A stretch of 64,000 nt of DNA from contig JAHQIY010000016.1 of NCBI GenBank assembly GCA_019054805.1, positions 1,116,001-1,180,000 of the forward strand. The letters run 5' to 3'. Below are positions 6,439 to 45,815 of this stretch, in pieces (position 1 is the stretch's first letter; the number at the start of each line of letters is the position of its first letter). The DNA is from Brachionus manjavacas. Lineage: Eukaryota; Rotifera; Eurotatoria; Ploima; Brachionidae. The position numbers and the translations under genes were made by a program. The notes under the pieces were generated by a model. That model saw only the letters and a list, made by a program, of their open reading frames with translations, ran no database searches and was not told where the DNA came from.

Positions 6439-9400
6439 TCACACGGCTGATATTTGATCTTCTTCATCTGAAAAATAAGTAAACTTAAACAATTCCTTAA
6501 TTAAACTTAAGCTAATTGCTACCTAAATTTGTATCTGTGATGACCGGTTTGGCCAAGTGCATTTCGCCATTTGAAGGATTTTTTTTAGTCTTGCATCTCG
6601 TGTTTTGTTCATGACCGAGATCTAAAAAAAACATAAAAAATTATTTTTGATTTTTATTTCAAATATTAACAAAAAAAAATAATTTACATTTAGTGACCAT
6701 AAAATTTCGCTGCTGAAAAATGGGTGAACATTGGTCCTGGTCAACATTCGATGCCATACTGGCCCGGCCCGAATCGGCATCGCCGTGGTGCAAACCGGAA
6801 GATTTGACCACTGCAGTGCCGTTGATTACAGTTGCATTCGAGCCTTTGGACTCATTGGGACACTTGGCATTTAGCTTGATGGTCGAGACACTAGCATTTT
6901 CGTTTGAAATTGAAAATTTGTTCAATGGTTGGGAGCTGCTGACCGATCTGAGTTTGGTCTTGGGTGAGAGTGGTACTGGTGGTGAAAAAGAGCCAACTGC
7001 ACTGTTATGCAAATTTGTATTTGTGATTGAAGACGATGAAGAGTTGAGCGCCAGCCGTGAGCTGCTCAAGTGCGACAGAGGAACTGATGAAGACGAAGAG
7101 GAATTTTTTACTGTTTTTGTTTTAGTCTCGGACAAAGCAAGAAGCTTTTTCATGGCTTCAGGTGAATGGGCACCTATTAGAAAAGAGTTAAAATTTTATT
7201 TTAAATTTTTCGTTAGCTCATGCTGGACAAAAAAAGGGTCTAAATCAAAGCAAAAAATCATTCAAAATTTTTTTTTAAATCCTTAAACCTTTGGTCATTC
7301 GAATGATGACGAGCTAGATGAGCTCATAAATGATTGTATTCTTAACCGAGTTTTTTTGCCTTCAAAATTAAAATTAAAAAAATTAATTATTTTTTTTTCC
7401 TACCGAAAAGAGAGCTTTTTTGCGAGTTTAGAATACCGTTACCGGTAGACACTCCGGCAATGGCGTTATTGACCATTGACCCAGTGGACATGTTGTGCAT
7501 GTTACTGTTGTTGAGCACGTTTATGCTACTAAGACTGTTTGCGTGCGAGCTGGATGGTGAGCCGCGTTTTCTCAGCGTGTTTCCATTTGTCGAGTTTTCC
7601 AAAGTAGATGAAAATAGCCTCAGGCGTTCTTCAGATGTTTCCAAATTTTTGGGCAAGTTGTTCAAATAGTGGCGAACTTTTCTCACCATCACGGACTAAA
7701 ATTTCAAACAAAATAAAAAATTTTGAATAAAAAATTTTATTAATACTTCTTCATAGAGTTTCTTTATGTGATCAGCTTTGATGTTGAGTCGGGTAAATTG
7801 GTGTGAGCTGAAGCCATAGCTGCGCTCAATTAGAGCGGGGTTGGTGCAGCCGAACAAGCTGAATATGACACTGTGGCTGGTGGGCACGTCTTTCATCGAT
7901 GTCAAATCGAATGGTGAACTGGTCATTTGCACAATTGAGCGGACTGTTTTGGAAATTTTTCTCAACTTTTCAAAATTTATTAGCTCATCTTCCAGTGTTC
8001 CACCAGATTCGTTTGTAAAATACAAGTCTTTTTGGCACACCGGAAAAAATGGAATCTGAAAAAAATAATTTAATTTTATAATTCAATTTTTTTTTGGGAA
8101 TATTATTTCCACACAATAAAAAATCTTTTCCACACAGTTCAAAGTATTATAAACACAATTTCAATATTTTTTAAAAAAACTTTTCAGCACAAAAAAAAAT
8201 TTAAATAATTTATTTTATTTAAAATAAAATATGAATTAAATAGTATTTAAACGTATCTTGAAAATGAAAAAAGTCAAGTGGATAGAAAAGGTACTAGCAG
8301 AGGAGATGAGCGCCTCCCCATTTATCCGCTTGGATAGAAAAGGGACAATTATACCACTTGTCAGCTAATTTAGTACATCCTCGTTTCGGCTTGTTTACAA
8401 AATGTTCATCTCTGATAAGGCCTAAAGAATTGATACAAAACTCCCATTAATTGTAAAATTTATAACTACAGCTCATTGTATCAATGCTTATTTCATATTC
8501 ACCTTTAAATTTATAACTAATTTGGGTTAACTTATTATCCCATTTAACCAAGGATTTAGAAAATTTAATCACTCTCTATGTAGGCCTTGTGTCAACTTCA
8601 AATTTTTCAAAAATCAATGCTTTATCAGCTATACACTTGACTTTTTTCATTTTCACAATACATTTGGCAAGATATTTATTTCATGAATACATTTTTTACC
8701 TTAAATTTAAATGGTATTTTTTTGTGTAAATTTTTTTTTTGACATATCAATAACACTATTAATCTTTTCATTCATTTAAATTTTTTTTTAATTTTTTTTT
8801 ATTGTTGATTTTTTAATAATCTTTCAAAAATCAACAATACAAAGTTTGAATACATATTTCAATATTTAGATTTAATTTTTCCATGAAAAATTAATTATAA
8901 AAATTATGCTCAAATCTACTAACAAAAATTGATTTTTCATGGAAAATTAAACCTAAAAAATTTTAAGAAATTTAAGTGAATGAAAAGATTAAAAGTATTA
9001 TTGACATGTAAAAAAAAAATTTTACTCAAAAAAATACCATAAAATTTAAGGTAATTTATTCATGAATAAAAATCTTGCCATTTAAATACTATTTAATTCA
9101 TATTTTATTTAAAATAAAATAAATTATTTAAACTTTTTTTTGATGCTGAAAAGTTTTTTTAAAAAATATTGAATATGTGTTGATAAGACTTTGAATTGTG
9201 GAGAAAAGATTTTTTATTGTGGGGTAAATTTAATCTAAAAATAAAATTTAGTTAAAAAAATTTACAATCGGGGCTTGGACTGATTCGCTTTTGAGCAAGT
9301 TGCGATACTTGCTCATGTTAAGTGAGGGATCCATGATGCCCTTGAGTTCGGAGAGGATTTTTTTGTTCTTGTTGGAAACTTTTTCCCAAGTTTCCTTCAA

Positions 9401-12400
9401 ACGAATCACGTTGGTATTGTCCAGACCGCTGACAATGGCAAATAGGGAATTGAAATTTTTGCATTTTTCGCACACATCTGCGATTTGAATGAAATTTTTA
9501 ATTATTTTAGCTCGTTTTAGTATGTTGGACTCGCGCAGAATTTCGTTTATGACCCAGTAGAGCTCTTGGTTGGAGAGTTCGGCAAAATTTTTTAAATTTT
9601 TAAATCCACTCTCGGTTTCTTTGTTGAATATTTTCTCAATGTACTCACTGGACTCGATCGATTTGAATATGCAATAGTCTCTAAGCGTTAGCTGAGCGGC
9701 CACTTCGATCGGGTCCAATTGTAGGAATGTTGTATTCCAGTCTTTCAGCAGCTCTTCGACTGCTGTCGAATCGCTCAGAAATTGTTCTGATGATGTGTTT
9801 GATTTCAAATAATAGCGGGCATTTAGCGGCAGCTTTTCGGCCAGGTTGTTTATTTGATCGGGCAAACGTTTTTGTTTTATAAGTCGATCTTGATCAACGC
9901 TCACTTCACACAGCGCATAGGCACTTAAATTATAATTCCTTTAAATTGAGTTTTTTTTTAATATTTTACCGAAAATTTCTATTTTCTTATTAATAATAAA
10001 ATTCAATTAAAAATATGCTTCCAGTTCCGTTGCATGGCATAACTGGAATGGACCAGTTGGTGGCATTAGAGGTCATCAGCTAAGGATGACTAAACACCTC
10101 ACCAAGTCAAAATTAAGAGAATTTCTCTTGATGTAGCTTATACTATTATTATCTTTATTATTTTTTTTGATATAAATTTAAAAAAATATTTACAGCTTGA
10201 AATGTATCAGCTCCTAAATAAAAGGCATTAACTCAAATTTAAAATCAGGATAATTTTCAATGGGAATTTTTTTTGGGTTTATTTTTGAGGTATCATATTA
10301 CTTTGACAAACAATTTAATAATTGATAAAATAATTGTTAAGTAAAGTTTAATTTAATAAAGAGAAATTTAACAAAATAAAGAAAAAAACATTAAAATATT
10401 CTTCGTAAAAATACGGATCAAGATTTATCGAATATACGACTCCATTGTGTAATTACTACTTTGTGATTTTTATTTTTTCCCTAAATCTTTAAACATTAAA
10501 AAAAATATAACATGTCACTCTTATTTCATTTTATCTATTTAATTTTATTCTTTGCTTCTCCAGAACTTCTCCAGAGCGGATGGACACAGACGAAGAGAAA
10601 TACGTCCATAATAGTAAATCTAGACTCAAAAATTAAAGAAGAATACAGCACTGTTTTGCTATGAGGATTTGAAGATTTTATACGTAAATTAACTTTATTT
10701 ATCGTAAATTATCGTAATTTTACAAAAGTCATTTTTCGTCATATTACGAAATTTATCGTAAAATTACATTTTTTAACGTAAAATAATTAAACAGGACCAA
10801 AGTGAATTAAAAATTGGACTCATGGGCCGTGGTGCTAAACGGCCAAGTGGAGTGTGTCCTGCTCGACTTGACTGTCAAAGTCTACAACTTCGGTGATCAG
10901 TAAAAACAAATCACTCATATCTTTAAGGACTTGTTACATGTGAACGTCAGTTATTATGGCGGCCAGGTGTATTTTTTGTCGTTCCATGCGGCTAATATGG
11001 CGGCCAGGTGTATTTTTTGCCGTTCCATGCAGCTATTATGGCGGCCACATGTATTTTTTGCCGTTCCATGCGGCTATTATGGCGGCCACATGTATTTTTT
11101 GCCGTTCCATGCGGCTATTATGGCGGTCAGGTGTATTTTTTGCTGATAGGAAAGGAAAAAAATCATGAGTTAAGATTTGTGACTTAAAAACAAGTCTGAA
11201 ACTAACTATTAGCCATACTATTTGCCAAATTAAAAAAAAATAAGACAAACTTACTTGCTTCCGATGTCGTCAATAATATTGAATTCATTTAGAGCCAACA
11301 TGACAACTTCTTTGGCCGTTGTTTCTTTGTGCACGACCAAGTACTTGAAAGTCTGATCGTTTTTGTAAATTTTGAGCACGTGTTCGCTCAAATACTGCTG
11401 CTGATCCTGTATGCTCATTTTAGCCAGACCGGCATCTACCTGGCCCGGCTCTTGGTTCAAATTACTGGCACTACTACTGCGGCTGATTGTGGCCGACAAA
11501 TCGCTTGCTCTGTGGATGCCGGTCACCGAACCGGTCAGACTGGACGCAGTGTTTGAGTGAAAGTTGGACAGAGAGGGAGAAGGCGATCGCGTTATGGATT
11601 TGAGAGAGGGAGCGGACGCGTCGCCATGAGACAGCGACTCAAGCTCCTTGGAATGAGCCTTGCGATTCAGCCTGCCCAGAAACTTCTTAAACTGATTGGC
11701 CTGACCGCCTGTTTCTTTGTGATTAATCATTTTGAAGTGGTTTTTGTCGCGGGACTTGTTGCGCGGCGTCATGCTGCTGGGCGGCAAAGGCGGCATGGCG
11801 CCTATTGACTTTTTGGCCGGCTCATTCGGCGTCGACTCGCTACTTCCACTCTCCTTTTTCTCCTGCACATAATCGACCAAATACGAGCCGTTCGCATAGG
11901 TCTTTTTGTTCCGGTGCGGCGATTTCTCCGGATGCAGCATCATCTCGGCGAAGCCGATCGGGTTGTACTTGAGTCTGATGCTCGAGTGGGTCGACGACTT
12001 GAGCACTTCGATGGCACTCGCGAGCGCTATGTGCTGGAACGAGTGCGAGTTCACCTCGAGTATTTGGTCGCCCTTTCTCATGCCCAGCTCGTACGCCTTG
12101 CACTCTCTGTCCACTTTGGACACGAAAATTCCGTAGCCCTTCTCCCAGCCGCCCTGGATCGAGAACATCAGGCTCTCGTCTCGCTTGGAGCGCGCCAACG
12201 TCACCAGTCTAGGCCTCGACTTGGTCGATATGGCTATGTTCAGCACCCGGTACTGATCGTGCATCTTCTCCCTGCTCAACTGCTCCTGGAACGTGTCCAC
12301 GAACTCGTACAACTGGCCGTTTTTCTCAAAGTCATTGAAGTGGTTTGTTATCCATTCGAGTACGATGCGGTAGACCTTTTTCTTGACGGCGATCTGAGCC

Positions 12401-15400
12401 GACGAGCCAAAGTAATCGCTCAGCTTGTTGGACACGTACACCGCGTTCTTGATGAATACTCGGTAGGTGAGCAAAAAGTCCTGGATGTAGGTCGGGTCGA
12501 CTAGCGAGTACGAGTCGTCCATGATCAACCGTTCGATTAGCTTGTCCGGCGTCGCCTTCAGCACTATCTCGCCTGTCTTCTCGCTTGAATTGTTTATCGG
12601 CCTGAATTCACATATCATGGCCAGCTTGTTGTTCTCATAGTAGCACTTGGTGTTCTCCTTGCTCTTGCTCAGAATTTCGTAGTAGTCATTTTGTTTCACT
12701 AGGACAAATTGGCAGTCGTCGCATTTTGTGCGCATTACTCCTTCGTGATAGACCGAGTCAAGGACTGGCGCCGTTCCGAAGCTAAATTCAAATGTTAGAT
12801 TTTTTTTTTTTTTTTTGAATTTTTATTACTGATCACCGACGTTGTAGACTTTGACAGTCGAGTCGGGCAGGACACACTCGACTTGGCCGTTGAGCACCAC
12901 GGCCCATGAGTCCAATTTTTCGTTATTGTCCAGCACAATTGTGTCCGCTTTATCCACTATTCCCAGCACCATACAAGAGCATAGTTTTCGCGTGATAGGC
13001 TCCGTCAAATTGCTGAACGCCTTTAGGTTGAAGAAAAAAATGGTTTTTAATTTTAGCAACAGAAAAGGGCTAGGAGGAAATTGAAATTATTTTTTTAGAG
13101 ATTCATTTGTTTGTTTGTACTGAGATAAAGCCACTTCAGATTGGTAAAATATTAGGAAAATTTTTACCATTTAAAAGTAAAATTTCTAAAAAAGATTGAG
13201 GTTTTTACGATATTTCACGATATTCACGTAAATTTCCGTAAAATTGAAAAAGTTCTTGAAAAATTTTAATTTTTAATTATTTTTTTTTTAATAAAAATTT
13301 TATTAAAAAAATTTTTTTTGTCAAATTTGGTAAATTTTCGTACCAAGATATTTTTTAGTAAAAAAATTAAAAATCAATTAATTCAATTTTTTTTTATTAC
13401 TAACAAATACAGAAATAGGAAAAAAAATTCGGATTTCACCTAAAATTTTTTCAGCTTAAATTCAAAATGAATTTAAAAAAGCAATACACAAGTAATATTG
13501 TTTTGAAAATGAGGAAGAAGTTTTTGATCGTTGTTCAGGGTCATTATCTTAAAGTTTAGATCGTACGCTTGTGCGCCAAAAGGAAGTAAATAAGCACCAA
13601 AATACACTGCACATTAAGTTCGGTAAATCCTCGTGAGGTGCTGGAATTTAATAAAACAAAATTTAAGTCCATAAATTTAATCATTATTTCTTATTTAAAA
13701 TTTGATTCTAAAGGTTCGACTTTTAGAGAGTCGCGGTAAAAGCTGCACATAGCCTAAAAGAAGATATACCTGATAAACTTGATTAATTTTATTTGCAAAA
13801 TCCTAAAAAAAATTTGTATTCTTCAAATTCAAAATTTTAACTATAATTCTTCGCCTTTATTTCGTTATTTTCGGTGTTTATAATAAAAAAAAATTTAACC
13901 TAATGTAAAAACTTCTAATAACTCTGGCTTTACAAGTTGAAAATGAAGATGTTAGAAGAAGCAACAAAACTTTTTGAAAAATTAAATTTGAACATAAATA
14001 TTTTTTTACTATTTGAATAATTGACTTTTTTTTATTTTTTTTTATTTTTATTAATAAATGGAGAGTTAATCAGTTTTAGCAAGACAGGGGCACTAGCCTA
14101 TTTATTAACCTTGAAATTGAAATTCAAAAATTGAAAATTTTAATTATAATTATTCGCCTTTATTTCGTTATTTTCTGTGTTTGTTTGTAATAAAAAAAAT
14201 AAACATAATGTAAAAACTTCTAAAAAATACATTTTTTTTTCAAAAACTTGCAAAATTTTATAAAAAAAATTCATAATTATTTTCAAAATATAAAAAAAAA
14301 TTAAAAACTTAAATTTTTCAAGATTTTTGGCATCTATTTTTTTTGCGTTAATTTTCGTGATATGACGAAATTTAACGATAATTCACGTAAATTACCGTAA
14401 AGTATAAAAATAAAAAATATACCAATTTATGGTTACTTACATTAATTATCGTAAAATTTTGTCAAATCACTACTGTTGATTTTTGGAAATTTTGAGCGAC
14501 TAAATTAATCCCAGATTTGCAAGAGCTTAATTATTCAGTGTTTATAGAAAACTTGGCTCAACTGATATTAGATTAAAAAAGAGTTGTGAGTGGAACAAAT
14601 TACAAGAATAAATTAATAATGAAAAATGTCTTAACAGTTTCAAAGCAAAGATTGATGGGTGGTTGAAGACTGCTTTAGCTTTTTGAAGCTCCGCTTTGAG
14701 AATCTTCAAGTCGGAATTAATTTTCCTACAAATACTACTTCTACTACTAAAATGGTAATTCATGGAAAATTTGTGTAAAAAGTGTAAAAGTTGCACTTAA
14801 ATAAAATCTTTAGACATTCGAGGATCAGTTAGCTTAAAAAAAATAAGAAATGCATAAATGTTTTTTAAACCATTTTTTATTTTGAATTTTTTTACACTAA
14901 TTTACCATTTTGAAATAAAAATTTACGTAAAATTAAGCTTAAAAAATTATTTATTTGTTACATGAATTCAAGGCAAAAAATTAAAGTTGATCAAATTCAC
15001 CAAAATTTTTTACTGAAAATTACATAATTTTCGATAAAATCCGGAAAATTTAAAATTTAGTAATTTGACGTAAATTTTGGTAGAAACAAAAATCGTGGCA
15101 ATGTCATGAACTGAAATGAGCAATGACTTATTTTGTTAGCTGAGACAGGGGAGAATAAAATCCAAAATAGATTCAACTAAAGATTTATAAAGTTTTCCTT
15201 AAGTTTCATGATTAAGACCCCATTTTCCAAAATGCCAGACAAATTTATGACATAATCTGAATTAAACTTAGCCTTGAATTAGAACCTTTTTTAATCTTAA
15301 CTACCATTTTAATTAAAATTTAATTTAGAATAAATATTCATGTGTCTTATTTCCACTAATTTTAATGTTTAAATAAGAATTTTCCTTATTGTATTTTGAA

Positions 15401-36880: not shown

Positions 36881-37301
36881 ATGTTTAAATCAATTTTAAA
36901 ATTTTTATTTTTAATAATTTTAATAATATTAGGCATTACGGCAAGTAAGTTGACAAGATTGATTTTCTGTGTGTTTTTTTTTAAAATTTTTATTTAAAGT
37001 TGAAGCATTGAAGTGTTTTAATTGCAATAGCTTTGACGATCCTAAGTGTCTGCACCCTGACTCAAATCTGCTGGTAACATGTGGTCTAAATTACACCGCG
37101 TGCGCCAAATATGTTCAAGTAAATGGTGGATACATTGAAAACGTAGCTAGAGTATGCGCTAATAATTTACTAGAAAACAATTGCGCTGGAGACGGCATTT
37201 GTATATACTGGTGTGATCATGATAGCTGTAATTATTCACCAAAAGTCAAAAATAGTCTTTTGATAAATGTTTTTTTACTCATTTTAGTTAAAATTTTTTG
37301 A
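36881..37301 (+). CDS. Small Ly6/uPAR-superfamily (quiver-like) GPI-anchor-type protein
   Basis: Two exons, 36881-36944 and 37000-37301, with a 55-bp GTAAGT...AAAG intron; 121 residues. Exon 1 encodes a strongly hydrophobic signal peptide (KFLFLIILIILGITA). The mature domain begins LKCFNCNSFDDPKC and has ten cysteines, ending in CIYWCDHDSCN, the C-x-N-type close of the three-finger fold. A C-terminal hydrophobic segment (LLINVFLLILVKIF) fits a GPI-attachment signal. The arrangement resembles invertebrate quiver/sleepless-type Ly6 proteins, which modulate membrane channels and receptors. That functional link is inference, since the family is sequence-diverse. NYT (~52-54) is a possible N-glycosylation site. 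Confidence 0.82.
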
Positions 37302-38417: not shown

Positions 38418-41400
38418 TTAGAATCCCATCAGTGTGAATAAGAAAAAGCTAATAAATGTTGGGCTGAATTTTAGCATCATTGAATCAGAACTTGTTGTAA
38501 TTGTTGGAGTTGTTGAAGTTTTTTGAGTCGAAGAATCTTCTGCTACTCCTGTAGTCGTAGAACTATTACTTGCTGAATTTTGTTCATTACCAGATTCTGT
38601 TGGATTCTGATCACTACTGCTCATAAACGCAGCGATTCTTTGAGCTGAAACTTCGAGAGCTCTTGAAATATCTTGCATTGCCAAAAAATCAGCTAATTGA
38701 ATCAAAAATGTAATATTAGAGCTACGCATTGCATTATCCGTTTGGTTAATCACCAAAGCTAATTCTCTCAAATTCTCTGGATTTATTACCACTACCAATT
38801 CAGGATATTTGATTACACAGTCACCCATTTGTTCCAAGTCGGACATTTTTTCACCAACACAAATACTCATGTTACTAATAAAGCTAACATTTTTTAGCAA
38901 TTCTTCAAAATTGATATCTATTATTTCACTATAAAAAGTTGTAAGTATAAAATCAAGTGACACATCTATTTGAAAATATTTGATCAAGTCTAATGTAAAT
39001 GTTCTTAAATTAGCACTGGAAACATAATCAATATATTCAATTATTAGTTCGATGTCATAGCCAGATCCGAGAAGAGGAAAAAGAAAAATTGAAATTACAC
39101 ATTGATTGATTTCATTTGGATTCATCAATTGATTATAAACACAATAGGTAGCCTCATTAAAGAGCAAGTTTTCTGCCATTTCCTCAAAATTAGATTGCTC
39201 AATGAGCATAAGTAAAAGTTGACGAAGATTCATATTCATTAATGAACCATCCAAAGTAACATTGAAAGGAATAGCTAGATTTAATTGACTCAAAAAATTG
39301 CTCAAATATAGATCTAAAGCTGGACCTAGATTAAATGGATTGTCCAAGTATATTCCAAGATTTGACTGATCCAATAAACTGCCTAATGACACATCCAAAA
39401 TGAAACTTAGGTTAAAATGGTTGAGTAAACTGTTCAATGTAGCATTCAAAGGTAATCCTTGGTAAAATTGATTAAGTAAAATGTTCAATGGTACATCCAT
39501 GGGTAGACTAAGATTTAACTGATTAAACAAACTGATTAGAGTTGCATTCAAATAAATTCCTAGATTTAAATGGTCCTTTAAGCCGTTCAAAGGTGCATCC
39601 AACAGTACATTCAAATTATACTGATGTAATAGACTGTTCAACGAATGATTCAGCGGCAGACCTAGGTTAAACGAATTCAATAAATTGGCCAATGTTCCAT
39701 TCAAAGGTATTCCTAGGTTTAGCTGATCCAATAAATTGTTCAAAGGAACATCCAAAGGTAGACTTAAATTATAATGATACAATACATTGTTTAAAGTATA
39801 ATCCAAAGGCAAAGTTAAATTCAATCGAGTGAGAAAACTGATAAAAGTTTCATTAGGAGATATTCCAAGATTTAATTGCTCCAATAAATTGTTCAAAGGA
39901 ACATCCAAAGGTAGACTTAAATTATAATGATACAATACATTGTTTAAAGTATAATCCAAAGGCAAAGTTAAATTCAATCGAGTGAGAAAACTGATAAAAG
40001 TCCCATTAGCAGATATTCCAAGATCCAATTGCTCTAATAAATTGTTCAGGGGTACATCCAAAGGTAGACTTAAATTATACTGATGCAATAGATTGTTCAA
40101 AGTTAAATTGAAGAGCACTTCTACATTCCAATCATCCAATAAATTGCTAAAAGGAACATCCAAAGGAATATTCAGCTGATACTGATTCAACAAACTGTTT
40201 AGGGTAAAATTCATGGATAACGCTTGGTCTAACTGATTTAACAAAGTGTTCAATGGTACATCCATAAGGAGACTTACATTATAATATTCCAAAAGATTGC
40301 TCAAAGTTGTATTCATATAAATTCCTAGATCAAACTGATTTAATAAATTCTCTAATGGTAAATCAAAAGGTAAATATGGGCCAAATGAATGCAATAAACT
40401 ACTCAAGGGTACATCCAACGGAAGGCTCAAATTAAATTGCTCAAATAAATTATTTAAAGTTGCATTCATAGGCAGTCCTTGGTAATAATGATCCAATATA
40501 TTGCTCAAAGGAGCATCCAAAAGTAGACTTAAATTAAACTGATCCAAATAGTTGTTCAAAGTTGAATTAAAATGCAATCCCTGGTTGAACTGAATTATTA
40601 AAGTGTTCAGTGGAATATCCAAAGTCGAATTGAGATTAAGCTGATTTAACAGAGTTCTCAAAGTTGCATTCAAATAAATTGCTAGATCCAACTGGTCTAT
40701 TAAATTCTCTAATGGTAAATCAAAAGGTAAATATGGGCCAAATGAATGCAATAAACTACTCAAGGGTACATCCAACGGAAGGCTCAAATTAAATTGCTCA
40801 AATATATTATTTAAAGTTGCATTCATAGGCAGTCCTTGGTAATAATGATCCAATATATTGCTCAAAGACACGTCCAAAATGAAACTTTGATTAAGCTGGT
40901 TTAACAAACTGTTCAAAGTTGTATTCAAAGTTAGTCCTTGGTTAAATTGATTCAGTAAGTTGTTCAATGGTACATCTAAAGGAAGACCTAGATTGAACTG
41001 ATAGAACAAATTGTTCAAAGAATCTTCCAGTGGAAGACTTAAATTAAATTGATCTAATAGATTGTTTAAAGTTGAATTAAAAGGTAATCCTTGATAAAGC
41101 TCATCCACAAATCGGTCAACACAATTTTGATTAAAATTTGAATCAATTAAACAATAAGATAGATTTTTTATACCATCAAAATCCAAAATTGGTTGAAAAA
41201 TCTCCGCTTGAAGCAAATAATTGATGCCAATTTTTAAGTTAAAATTTAAAATTGTATCTGCCAAGAGCAAATTTTCGCTAACATTTCCGATTGAGTTAAA
41301 TAGAGCTATCACCAATGTTTCATTTGCCATGCATGGATTCAATGCTGTTGTATCTTCCAATTGATCTATTAGGCAAGAAACCACATTTTTGGTTATTGTT

Positions 41401-42188
41401 AAATTCATATATTCAGAAAAGTAGAAGTTTACGAAACCAGATACTTGACTGCTTATATTTAATGATGAAATTAAGTCGGATAGCTTTAAAGCGGGAATTT
41501 GTAAAATTAGAGTGTTCAAGTTCTTGAATTTGCTAAAATCTACACCATTGGCAAATTCTAATATGGCTCTGACAACATCTTCTGTATTCAAATTGTTCAA
41601 TTGATTGTTTAAATCGAACAAAAATGTTAAATTTATGTACTGAGTCATATTTAGTTCACCGATTAAGTCCATTAGCTCCTTCATGGCTTCTTCGGTGTTA
41701 ATATTTTTGAGTTGATTTGTTAAATCATTTAAAAAATTAGGATCTATGTACTGAGTCACACCAAATCCATTGATTATGTCCATAAGTTGCATGATAGCTT
41801 CATCTTTATTCAAATTTTTTAGTTGATTTGTAGAATTAATTAAATAATTTAGATCTATATTATTTAAGTTTATTAGCTGATTGTCATTGAGACTTTTTAT
41901 CATATTGTCCAAAAACATTGCAATAGAATTTTCTACATTTGAATTAGTGAGCTGTTTTACCAAATCGTTCAGAATACTTTGGTCCATATTGAGATTGATT
42001 GAATTTAAGTCAATGTTTTGGATGAATCCTGACAAGTCGGCATATTGAGGATTTTGGTTCAGAATGTTGGAAAGCTGAGAGCTAAAATCATTTAAATTTT
42101 TCTGGCCTAGTAATGATCTTTTGACTGATTTTGTCTGGCCAATATACACTAGGCAAAAACCCAACAAAATTAACAAAATCTTTTTCAT
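38418..42188 (-). CDS. Novel secreted repeat glycoprotein with ~36 tandem 17-residue repeats, probable GPI anchor
   Basis: A single uninterrupted frame of 1256 residues. The signal peptide is MKKILLILLGFCLVYIGQTK. Residues ~90-230 contain about three ~44-residue repeats (NQLKNLN...EEAM.ELMD...TQYI). Residues ~364-986 are about 36 units of 17 residues, consensus FNLSLPLDVPLNNLLNQ. Units with an Asn-x-Thr/Ser sequon at position 8 (e.g. YYQGLPMNATLNNLFEQ) tend to alternate with units carrying LDVPL, so heavy N-glycosylation is expected. C-x13-C motifs flank the repeats. The Ser/Thr-rich C-terminus ends in a hydrophobic tail (LKFSPTFISFFLFTLMGF), consistent with GPI attachment. I recognise no domain family. 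The leucine spacing suggests an amphipathic, solenoid-like fold; an extracellular coat, cuticle or mucus role is speculative. Confidence 0.88.
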   Translation of the reverse strand: MKKILLILLGFCLVYIGQTKSVKRSLLGQKNLNDFSSQLSNILNQNPQYADLSGFIQNIDLNSINLNMDQSILNDLVKQLTNSNVENSIAMFLDNMIKSLNDNQLINLNNIDLNYLINSTNQLKNLNKDEAIMQLMDIINGFGVTQYIDPNFLNDLTNQLKNINTEEAMKELMDLIGELNMTQYINLTFLFDLNNQLNNLNTEDVVRAILEFANGVDFSKFKNLNTLILQIPALKLSDLISSLNISSQVSGFVNFYFSEYMNLTITKNVVSCLIDQLEDTTALNPCMANETLVIALFNSIGNVSENLLLADTILNFNLKIGINYLLQAEIFQPILDFDGIKNLSYCLIDSNFNQNCVDRFVDELYQGLPFNSTLNNLLDQFNLSLPLEDSLNNLFYQFNLGLPLDVPLNNLLNQFNQGLTLNTTLNSLLNQLNQSFILDVSLSNILDHYYQGLPMNATLNNIFEQFNLSLPLDVPLSSLLHSFGPYLPFDLPLENLIDQLDLAIYLNATLRTLLNQLNLNSTLDIPLNTLIIQFNQGLHFNSTLNNYLDQFNLSLLLDAPLSNILDHYYQGLPMNATLNNLFEQFNLSLPLDVPLSSLLHSFGPYLPFDLPLENLLNQFDLGIYMNTTLSNLLEYYNVSLLMDVPLNTLLNQLDQALSMNFTLNSLLNQYQLNIPLDVPFSNLLDDWNVEVLFNLTLNNLLHQYNLSLPLDVPLNNLLEQLDLGISANGTFISFLTRLNLTLPLDYTLNNVLYHYNLSLPLDVPLNNLLEQLNLGISPNETFISFLTRLNLTLPLDYTLNNVLYHYNLSLPLDVPLNNLLDQLNLGIPLNGTLANLLNSFNLGLPLNHSLNSLLHQYNLNVLLDAPLNGLKDHLNLGIYLNATLISLFNQLNLSLPMDVPLNILLNQFYQGLPLNATLNSLLNHFNLSFILDVSLGSLLDQSNLGIYLDNPFNLGPALDLYLSNFLSQLNLAIPFNVTLDGSLMNMNLRQLLLMLIEQSNFEEMAENLLFNEATYCVYNQLMNPNEINQCVISIFLFPLLGSGYDIELIIEYIDYVSSANLRTFTLDLIKYFQIDVSLDFILTTFYSEIIDINFEELLKNVSFISNMSICVGEKMSDLEQMGDCVIKYPELVVVINPENLRELALVINQTDNAMRSSNITFLIQLADFLAMQDISRALEVSAQRIAAFMSSSDQNPTESGNEQNSASNSSTTTGVAEDSSTQKTSTTPTITTSSDSMMLKFSPTFISFFLFTLMGF
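39235..41100 (-). repeat. 51-bp coding tandem repeat array
   Basis: The DNA behind the 17-residue units, about 36 copies of 51 bp. Most copies have diverged. Two blocks are recent: 40769-40866 nearly repeats 40410-40510 (357 bp, seven units apart), and a three-unit block near 39740-39890 nearly repeats ~39893-40043 (153 bp apart). Both shifts are whole units, so the frame and repeat phase are preserved. Confidence 0.88.
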
Positions 42189-44366: not shown

Positions 44367-45815
44367 CTATTCAACAAATTTAAGAATAAAAATAAAATAA
44401 AAATACACATAAAAAATTTTCTTAATTTTAATAGCATTGTTTTTTGTCTCAATTGTTGTTAAAAACGCACTAGTTGTTTGAGTTAAAGTCTTATTAAAGT
44501 GATTTACCAAAGTGATCAATTGATCAAAATTATTGATAAAATTAGTCCAAAATTGATTTAAATTAGTTTCATTTCTGTTAGAAAAATCAAAAATTGCTTG
44601 CATCATTAGTGTCGTATTTTTGTAATAGCCCGGCAGCGATTCCAAACATTCTAATGGATTCGAATTGTTATTTGAACACCTTGTTAAATTCAATAAATCT
44701 AAATAACTTGAATTTAAATTTAAAAAATTTATAATTTTCGTGTCATTTTGGAAACACAATTCCATTTTATCTATTTCATTCATGTTGTCTCTCATACATA
44801 ATAAAAAATTTTCAAATAAATCACTGATAAAAAATGTACCAATAGGTGTTTTGGCATCATTCAACTGTGACAGCCTTTCCAAATTCGTTGAGATATGATC
44901 CACCAAGTCTGATCTGCCTATAAAAGCCGAAAACTGGTCCATTAATTTGGATAATTTAACCAAAAAATTTTTATTAGTTAAGATCGAATAACTAAAAACA
45001 CATTTTTGATAAAAATTTGGCTCGATTAAAAATGCAGTCAAGCAAATAAAAAAATTCATTTGTCTATGATCATCTAGAAAAATCGATTCAATTTTTTTGA
45101 GAATGGATTTTGTATCTAAGCTTAAAATTATTTCCACTTTAGAGACAGAATCTAAAAGGTCTTCTATAGACTTATTTTCAATAAAATCAAATAAAAATTT
45201 GTTATCAACTAAACAAGAGAAAAAGGTTCTTTCTCTAAGACATAGAGTAAAAATATCCAATTGATATTGTTTGGTATAAATGGCAAAATTTTGGTTAATT
45301 GAGCTAAAAAAGCCCATGTTTTTAATGAAAGAAGCAGCTAATGGACTCATAAATTGATTCCAACATGTCTTGTCCGTATTAGGCTCAAGAACTTGCTCCA
45401 AAAAGCATATTGAAATTTTTTTAAGCTCTAAATTGTCTACATTAATTTGGTGAAGAAGCGATATTATTTTATTGCTTGAATTAGTGGTCAAAAAGCCCTG
45501 TAAATTTGCTCGAATGTCAACAATGGTCGACGTGAATTTTTCCATTGTGTCAAGAAGTTCTTTCACCGGTAGACTAGTGTTAAACAAATATAAGATGTCT
45601 AATAGATAAATTTTATCTTGTAAGAATGGTTCCAAAGGCGATAGATCTAATGAACTCTTTGGTCGATTGCCATATTCGTTTTGGTCATTTTGGATTGATT
45701 CTAATAGAGAATCTATTGTATCAAATTGGGAATTGCTTTGGTCATTCAGACAATGCGAGAATTTGCTTTTAAAAATAAAAAAGAAAATTAATGCTGTTAA
45801 AATGTTCAATTGCAT
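44367..45815 (-). CDS. Secreted protein sharing the C-x13-C signature of the 1256-residue neighbour
   Basis: A single frame of 482 residues beginning with a signal peptide (MQLNILTALIFFFIFKSKFS) and ending in a hydrophobic stretch (FYVYFYFIFILKFVE), possibly a GPI or membrane anchor. It lacks the 17-residue repeats. It does contain several cysteine pairs with the spacing of the downstream neighbour: CFLEQVLEPNTDKTC, CLTAFLIEPNFYQKC and CMRDNMNEIDKMELC (all C-x13-C), plus CLRERTFFSC (x8) and CSNNNSNPLEC (x9). NxT/S sequons are present. Same strand, intronless, about 2.2 kb upstream of the large gene: they look like tandem members of one unrecognised secreted family. No function can be assigned. 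Confidence 0.8.
   Translation of the reverse strand: MQLNILTALIFFFIFKSKFSHCLNDQSNSQFDTIDSLLESIQNDQNEYGNRPKSSLDLSPLEPFLQDKIYLLDILYLFNTSLPVKELLDTMEKFTSTIVDIRANLQGFLTTNSSNKIISLLHQINVDNLELKKISICFLEQVLEPNTDKTCWNQFMSPLAASFIKNMGFFSSINQNFAIYTKQYQLDIFTLCLRERTFFSCLVDNKFLFDFIENKSIEDLLDSVSKVEIILSLDTKSILKKIESIFLDDHRQMNFFICLTAFLIEPNFYQKCVFSYSILTNKNFLVKLSKLMDQFSAFIGRSDLVDHISTNLERLSQLNDAKTPIGTFFISDLFENFLLCMRDNMNEIDKMELCFQNDTKIINFLNLNSSYLDLLNLTRCSNNNSNPLECLESLPGYYKNTTLMMQAIFDFSNRNETNLNQFWTNFINNFDQLITLVNHFNKTLTQTTSAFLTTIETKNNAIKIKKIFYVYFYFIFILKFVE

Follow-up and report, generated by a model that had tools for sequence, protein, structure and literature searches.

An array of 17-residue units in a sequon-rich, probably surface-anchored protein of the rotifer Brachionus manjavacas

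What kind of protein is encoded by a long and internally repetitive reading frame of the rotifer Brachionus manjavacas, how did its repeats arise, and what might it do for the animal? The question is raised by a stretch of 64,000 nucleotides (assembly GCA_019054805.1, contig JAHQIY010000016.1, positions 1,116,001 to 1,180,000; hereafter the window), in which a listing of open reading frames (ORFs) places a frame of 1256 codons, without internal stop, on the minus strand. An original prediction, made from the letters alone, had proposed for exactly this frame a previously unrecognised secreted glycoprotein built of about 36 repeats of 17 residues. The gene is called intronless here in the sense of one uninterrupted open frame. 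Judged from its sequence, the protein is, on balance, best explained as a surface-coat protein of the Brachionus lineage, probably attached by a glycosylphosphatidylinositol (GPI) anchor and bearing N-glycans, whose repeat array would be an acidic scaffold grown by duplication.

Regularity and coding constraint of the array

The periodicity of the protein is evident from autocorrelation, which provides the independent test of the repeat. Self-identity at lags of 17, 34 and 51 residues is 0.215, 0.251 and 0.246, respectively, whereas the best of these three lags in 2000 shuffled controls has a mean of 0.103 and a maximum of 0.127. On a unit profile, 34 consecutive units spanning residues 371–948 score 22–38 bits with zero insertions or deletions; since this profile was trained on the 35 stretches from 371 to 949 themselves (the last of which, at 949, scores −3.5), the scores describe regularity only. 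The array ends in a shortened unit of 10 residues, DNPFNLGPAL, followed by two divergent units recognised by eye, giving about 36–37 units in all, so that the predicted repeat number is borne out. The consensus of the unit is [N/D]-x-[T/P]-L-N-N-L-L-x-Q-[F/L/Y]-N-[L/Q]-[G/S]-L-P-L, with a mean identity of 42% among the 34 clean units, 32 of which are distinct. In composition the 612 residues of the array are 29% Leu and 16% Asn, with a net charge of −42 and a single Lys beside three Arg; by comparison, Lys accounts for 13 of the 343 residues of the N-terminal part and for 30 of 460 in the neighbouring protein (44367–45815).

At the DNA level, the proportion of synonymous differences (pS) pooled over all pairs of the 34 units is 0.62, against a non-synonymous proportion (pN) of 0.33; at each of the five lags examined, the fewest differences are at second codon positions. 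This combination argues that the array is very probably translated and constrained as protein. Two comparisons of 85 residues at lag 51 give pS 0.33 with pN 0.10 and pS 0.34 with pN 0.14. Tandem Repeats Finder detects blocks of 153 and 357 bp in the array DNA, and growth would probably have proceeded by in-frame duplication of 51-bp units, followed later by duplication of blocks of three and seven units. Tandem 51-bp DNA with block duplications, seen in one genome only, is also what would be expected of a minisatellite that is coding but has little function, or of a frame that is not expressed; such an explanation is nevertheless very improbable in view of the 1256 open codons, the excess of pS over pN, the conservation of second codon positions and a unit length that stays constant despite a mean DNA identity of only 61% between units.

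Sequons, fold and family

N-glycosylation sequons are about twice as frequent as chance would provide, with 43 in residues 23–1230 against 21.0 in shuffles. For residues 371–982 the figures are 30 and 10.5, an approximately threefold excess, and there is no significant enrichment in the N-terminal part (8 vs 6.2) or the C-terminal part (4 vs 2.0). Their places within the 34 clean units are restricted to position 1 (15 units, the cap), position 12 (13 units, the exit) and position 14 (one unit), and re-dealing the letters within columns yields fewer sequons than observed at both main places (8.8 expected at the cap and 8.6 at the exit). All 15 Asn-capped units carry Ser or Thr at position 3 and none carries Pro (34 units, the shortened 35th excluded), whereas position 3 of the 19 units capped by Asp or Glu is Ser or Thr in five and Pro in 14 (P 1e-5 for the contrast). 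Exit sequons accompany 11 of the 15 cap sequons, as opposed to two of the 20 remaining units (35 units). The cap type differs between 27 of 33 neighbouring pairs (shuffled mean 16.7, P ~1e-4) and adjoining Asn caps are rare (one pair vs 6.2 expected), but the units, being related by duplication, are not independent, and the P values computed from their counts exaggerate the evidence. Alternation between sequon caps and LDVPL, as originally proposed, is thus a real tendency without being strict: eight of the 15 Asn caps fall on odd and seven on even positions, which makes it a spacing habit rather than a two-unit register. The idea of a two-unit solenoid with glycans lining one face was dropped for the same reason, as the Asn caps change parity along the array.

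The hydrophobic moment of unit columns 4–12 peaks at 100 degrees, as for a helix, and that of columns 11–17 at 180 degrees, as for an extended segment, while a low-confidence AlphaFold2 model with a predicted local distance difference test (pLDDT) score of 32 has helix at positions 5–9 in more than 90% of the 34 units. The unit may consist of a short helix followed by an extended segment, for which the AlphaFold2 placement is weak support. Structure prediction of six to eight units had been suggested as a check; with eight units, supplied as a four-row alignment of the protein's own segments (MAFFT, rows shifted by whole units and no gaps within rows), AlphaFold2 gave no confident model (pLDDT 35.9), nor did it for residues 371–982 alone (pLDDT 32.5). 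The same two scores bear on a possible solenoid, part of the original prediction, in which regular alpha or alpha/extended units would offer one face for ligand binding. The run of 34 units without indel, the amphipathic pattern and the recurrent helix of the low-confidence model would all suit a solenoid, yet we regard it as distinctly unlikely given these scores and the glycan-capped units lying out of two-unit phase; in addition, 18 of the 35 profile units have Pro at position 16, which speaks against a continuous beta sheet.

No model of Pfam or NCBIfam exceeds its cut-off for the protein, and sequences of the PDB provide no match to it, in accord with the claim that it resembles no common repeat family; a 34-column profile finds two PDB sequences, at E 0.54 (an unrelated enzyme) and 2.7. 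Three candidates were rejected, all of them apparently chance matches of sequence rich in Leu and Asn whose scores add up across the repeats: YukD, the best below threshold (whole-protein E 2e-5, but 25.6 bits where 27 are required and no individual stretch passing), the small-subunit model of exonuclease VII (E 0.0015; 18.2 bits vs 77) and a Dzip-like model (E 0.037). Many leucine-rich repeat (LRR) proteins are extracellular and N-glycosylated, with a shortest repeat of about 20 residues. The array is likewise leucine-rich, but its period is 17 residues, the LRR core LxxLxLxx[NC] is depleted (one in 612 residues vs 8.3 in shuffles), and no LRR model is among the matches listed at E up to 1 for the whole protein in Pfam or for a 204-residue part of the array, a search in which the HMMER filters discard most matches above E ~0.1; depleted motif and absent profile match together rule out an LRR identity. 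Two units make 34 residues, the length of the helical repeats of TPR, PPR and TALE proteins, and share with these short amphipathic segments having Asn, Asp, Thr or Pro caps. Here too no such model is among the matches listed for Pfam (E up to 1) or NCBIfam, and the resemblance is limited by cap types that do not keep two-unit phase, even though identity at lag 34 exceeds that at lag 17, and by the low-confidence AlphaFold2 models.

Wider searches were of restricted bearing. Matches to one of six peptide patterns were found in 14 stretches of IMG/VR, and 31 stretches matched in GTDB genomes; none was confirmed in either collection, and neither is expected to hold rotifers. Among the papers listed from the literature searched, which covers few subscription journals, none contains '17-residue repeat' or '17-amino acid repeat', and '17 amino acids' occurs there on proteins that by title are unrelated. 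The description 'previously unrecognised' accordingly holds within these family libraries and this literature, and is not claimed beyond them.

Related genes and the origin of the array

The 114-Mb genome was searched with the whole protein, with separate parts of it and with the paralogue itself, and a single clear paralogue was found, at C27:385477 (E 1.5e-15). Its N-side flank aligns with the 1256-residue protein at a score of 203.5 (54 ± 8.6 in 1000 shuffles), and its Cys gaps of 14/60/10 are identical to those of the flank that precedes the array. At residue 147 there is one unit-like stretch, LLRQFNLNLPFIDNLNNSLLNMNL, whose score of 9.5 exceeds the best value, 8.1, obtained from the paralogue shuffled 200 times, and 50 residues that include part of this stretch resemble the far end of the array together with the start of the C-terminal domain (40% identity, E 0.033). 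Because homologous flank and Cys spacing are here combined with about one unit, it is probable that the array expanded in place from about one unit. Alternatively, the paralogue may have lost an array, in-place growth being the simplest reading. If growth occurred, the two genes, one having about one unit and the other about 36, would represent within a single genome a likely before-and-after pair for the origin of a lineage-specific repeat array. No further 17-residue array was found in the genome, in a search whose match counts are lower bounds. The unit hidden Markov model (HMM) matched no further ORF around the paralogue, where the DNA covered extended 10 kb to either side and farther, or in the 20 kb that flank the window at each end (next best E 0.76). 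Other matches in the genome (L008, L009, L012 and L013; E 0.09 to 7.7) were discarded when their ORFs were read by eye.

Beyond the stop codon of the paralogue, the same frame continues to a second stop (L002:2254–2460) and resembles the 1256-residue protein by eye; the paralogue may have been truncated or be decaying. A weak resemblance also links the C-terminal Cys domain in the 1256-residue protein to the paralogue's first Cys region (E 0.06 at L007, C16:1154697–1154933; E 0.045 at L015, C27:385579–385821), on which basis the Cys module may have been duplicated internally.

A second relative probably lies beside the array gene. The 482-residue neighbour matches the 1256-residue protein, in the C-part, with E 8e-4 in a one-to-one BLASTP comparison and with E 0.38 in tblastn against the window. 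The C-part scores 111.5 (shuffled 73.8 ± 10.8, maximum 118.5), the N-part and the comparison of neighbour with paralogue score at the shuffled mean, and there is no match to the neighbour elsewhere in the genome. The C-x13-C pair occurs three times in both proteins (P 0.0006; 0.015 when any distance of 3–30 is allowed). Single pairs of this spacing are not rare, at least one being present in 13 ORFs of at least 90 residues from the window and eight loci, but among these, apart from the two genes themselves, two have two pairs and none has three. We consider the neighbour a probable tandem relative of the array gene. The array-less paralogue, this relative, the near-absence of Lys and Arg from the array and the second sequon at the unit exit are all additions to the original prediction.

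How might the parts of the protein work together? It would be secreted by means of a putative N-terminal signal peptide, its hydrophobic tail would be replaced by a GPI anchor, and many of its sequons would carry N-glycans. Each unit would form a short amphipathic helix (about residues 4–11) with an Asn or Asp cap at its entry and a short extended segment after it. The array as a whole would be part of the surface coat, a long and acidic spacer or scaffold on which glycans are carried above the membrane at more or less even intervals. The proposed secretion and anchoring fit a protein that is secreted-looking, sequon-rich and probably anchored, with both termini judged by eye. An unanchored structural protein of the egg envelope, mucus or lorica matrix, with a tail that is a weak membrane anchor or remains unprocessed, is an unlikely alternative; the visual assignment of the tail would allow it, as would the paralogue, whose frame stops before any stalk or anchor, and the composition of the array, Leu/Asn-rich and nearly devoid of Lys and Arg, would suit an insoluble, trypsin-resistant matrix. 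Set against it is the order of a stalk and an uncharged hydrophobic C-terminus without a basic cytosolic tail, which is the usual arrangement of a GPI signal.

Several points count against the anchored, glycan-bearing scaffold. In the recent duplication of a 119-residue block, a comparison covering 85 residues gives a pS of 0.135, hardly greater than the pN of 0.118, indicating little constraint. Neither AlphaFold2 run supplies a confident fold, and the cap Asn could act in helix capping without being glycosylated. The unit-like stretch of the paralogue was missed both when the genome was searched with the array (E up to 10) and by the unit HMM (E up to 1), for which the region was among the data; the C-side match of the paralogue is weak (106.5 vs 63.7 ± 10.6, with a maximum of 107 in 1000 shuffles), and its frame possesses neither stalk nor GPI-like tail.

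The features are collected in Table 1. Within residues 24–366, lag 37 is the sole lag among 15–89 at which self-identity exceeds a cut of 0.16.

Table 1. Coordinates of the array gene, its parts and its relatives (window positions unless a locus is named)
Feature	Position	Strand	Basis
Whole coding frame, 1256 aa	38418..42188	-	ORF listing; unit-to-unit pS 0.62 vs pN 0.33
Signal-peptide-like N-terminus, residues 1-21	42126..42188	-	Judged by eye from sequence
N-terminal 37-residue repeat, 3 copies, residues 120-230	41499..41831	-	Identities between copies 21/37, 10/37, 10/37
Cys pair C-x13-C, residues 272-286	41331..41375	-	Cys spacing 14/60/10 recurs in C27 paralogue
Cys pair C-x9-C, residues 346-356	41121..41153	-	Cys spacing
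Array, 34 units of 17 residues without indel, residues 371-948	39345..41078	-	Unit profile
Shortened unit and two divergent units ending the array, residues 949-982	39243..39344	-	Assigned by eye
C-terminal domain, two C-x13-C pairs (1016-1030, 1110-1124)	38622..39242	-	Cys spacing
Ser/Thr-rich stalk, residues 1190-1236	38481..38621	-	Composition of residues 1167-1256; limits by eye
Hydrophobic GPI-signal-like tail, residues 1237-1256	38421..38480	-	Judged by eye from sequence
Neighbour, 482 aa, no array, signal-peptide-like start, three C-x13-C pairs	44367..45815	-	Weak similarity and Cys spacing
C27 paralogue, 270 aa	L002:1441-2253		Homologous pre-array flank, no array

Rotifer mating proteins and other features of the genome

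A comparison is invited by the MMR surface glycoproteins of rotifers, which are described as intronless and acidic, with a signal peptide, head-to-tail repeats predicted to be helical and no Pfam match (PMC2746195, PMC3495898). The array protein comes from the same kind of animal and resembles them in a signal-peptide-like start, the uninterrupted frame, tandem repeats, a helical prediction, acidity and the lack of a Pfam match over its cut-off. The published mmr-b primer (PMC2746195 Table 1) has one exact match in this genome, at C7:5027191, and two further matches that each contain one mismatch, its reversed control having 0 matches. The exact match and one of the others lie at the starts of intact MMR-B genes, of 283 residues with three repeats and 457 residues with five (repeat length 87 residues); at the third there is no ORF that reaches 80 residues. 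These genes by themselves place the genome in Brachionus, most likely in the B. plicatilis complex, with B. manjavacas as a possible species. The two genes correspond to the published MMR-B3 (849 bases) and MMR-B5 (PMC2746195). The first two repeats of the 283-residue gene are 98.1% identical, whereas the repeats of the published MMR-B3 differ at one position (PMC2746195), so that this gene is not the same allele as that of the paper.

The differences are considerable. MMR repeats are 87–92 residues long and nearly identical, whereas the array units have 17 residues and are divergent; MMR-B is devoid of sequons and mature MMR-B3 of Cys, whereas the array protein has 43 sequons and several Cys pairs. 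Alignment of MMR-B3 with the whole 1256-residue protein scores 77, below the maximum of 84.5 in 300 shuffles, and none of the comparisons of MMR-B3 with the whole protein, the array, the neighbour or the paralogue exceeds its shuffled maximum (300 shuffles each); that with the neighbour comes near it (68.0 vs 69.5; mean 43.7, standard deviation 7.3).

Both intact MMR-B genes have 0 sequons, in agreement with the published account of MMR-B, and yet treatment with N-glycanase or lectins lowered the attractiveness of females to males (PMC2746195). This contrast suggests, speculatively, that another surface protein may carry the mating glycans, for which the array protein would be a candidate: it is heavily loaded with sequons and probably anchored at the surface of an animal whose mating depends on N-glycans of unclear carrier. 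That the protein is a female-surface recognition or adhesion molecule analogous to MMR, with the glycan array as the signal, is nonetheless highly unlikely. Besides lacking any sequence relation to MMR-B3, its units are old and divergent where MMR repeats are nearly identical; moreover, the authors allowed for unusual glycosylation of MMR-B itself (PMC2746195), and even MMR may have another, constitutive function (PMC3701536). A long shot is that the units adopt a new extracellular fold whose helix cap is at the same time the glycosylation site. Exchange of Asn-x-Thr for Asp-x-Pro would then toggle the glycan with the fold kept, and the protein may carry the N-glycans by which males recognise females, which the sequon-free MMR-B would not obviously supply. 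B. manjavacas has reportedly been edited by CRISPR (PMC10395877), so that the role of the gene is open to test.

In the MMR-B genes themselves (L028:1453–2304; L029), Gly-Lys-Arg stands at every internal repeat boundary, two of two and four of four. We take this to resemble a site of amidation or dibasic cleavage, and the MMR-B repeats might be released as separate peptides.

Rfam has 0 matches in the window, and a putative bdelloid spliced-leader sequence gave no match, which says little. Beside the array gene, at 36969–37301 on the plus strand, lies an exon-like, Quiver/Ly-6-like ORF (QVR 25.2 bits vs a cut-off of 27.3). The minus strand at 9251–13086 looks to encode a Rap exchange factor of the PDZ-GEF type, with RasGEF_N, PDZ and RA over their cut-offs in the exon at 11251–12735 and the other exons assigned by eye. 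Elsewhere in the assembly, contig C21 (1.22 Mb; L022, L023) contains a bacterial-looking cytochrome o oxidase operon, recognised by eye, with a COX1 family match in an open frame of 667 residues and a GC content of 0.32 over 8 kb; from these features the contig is probably bacterial, and perhaps that of a symbiont.

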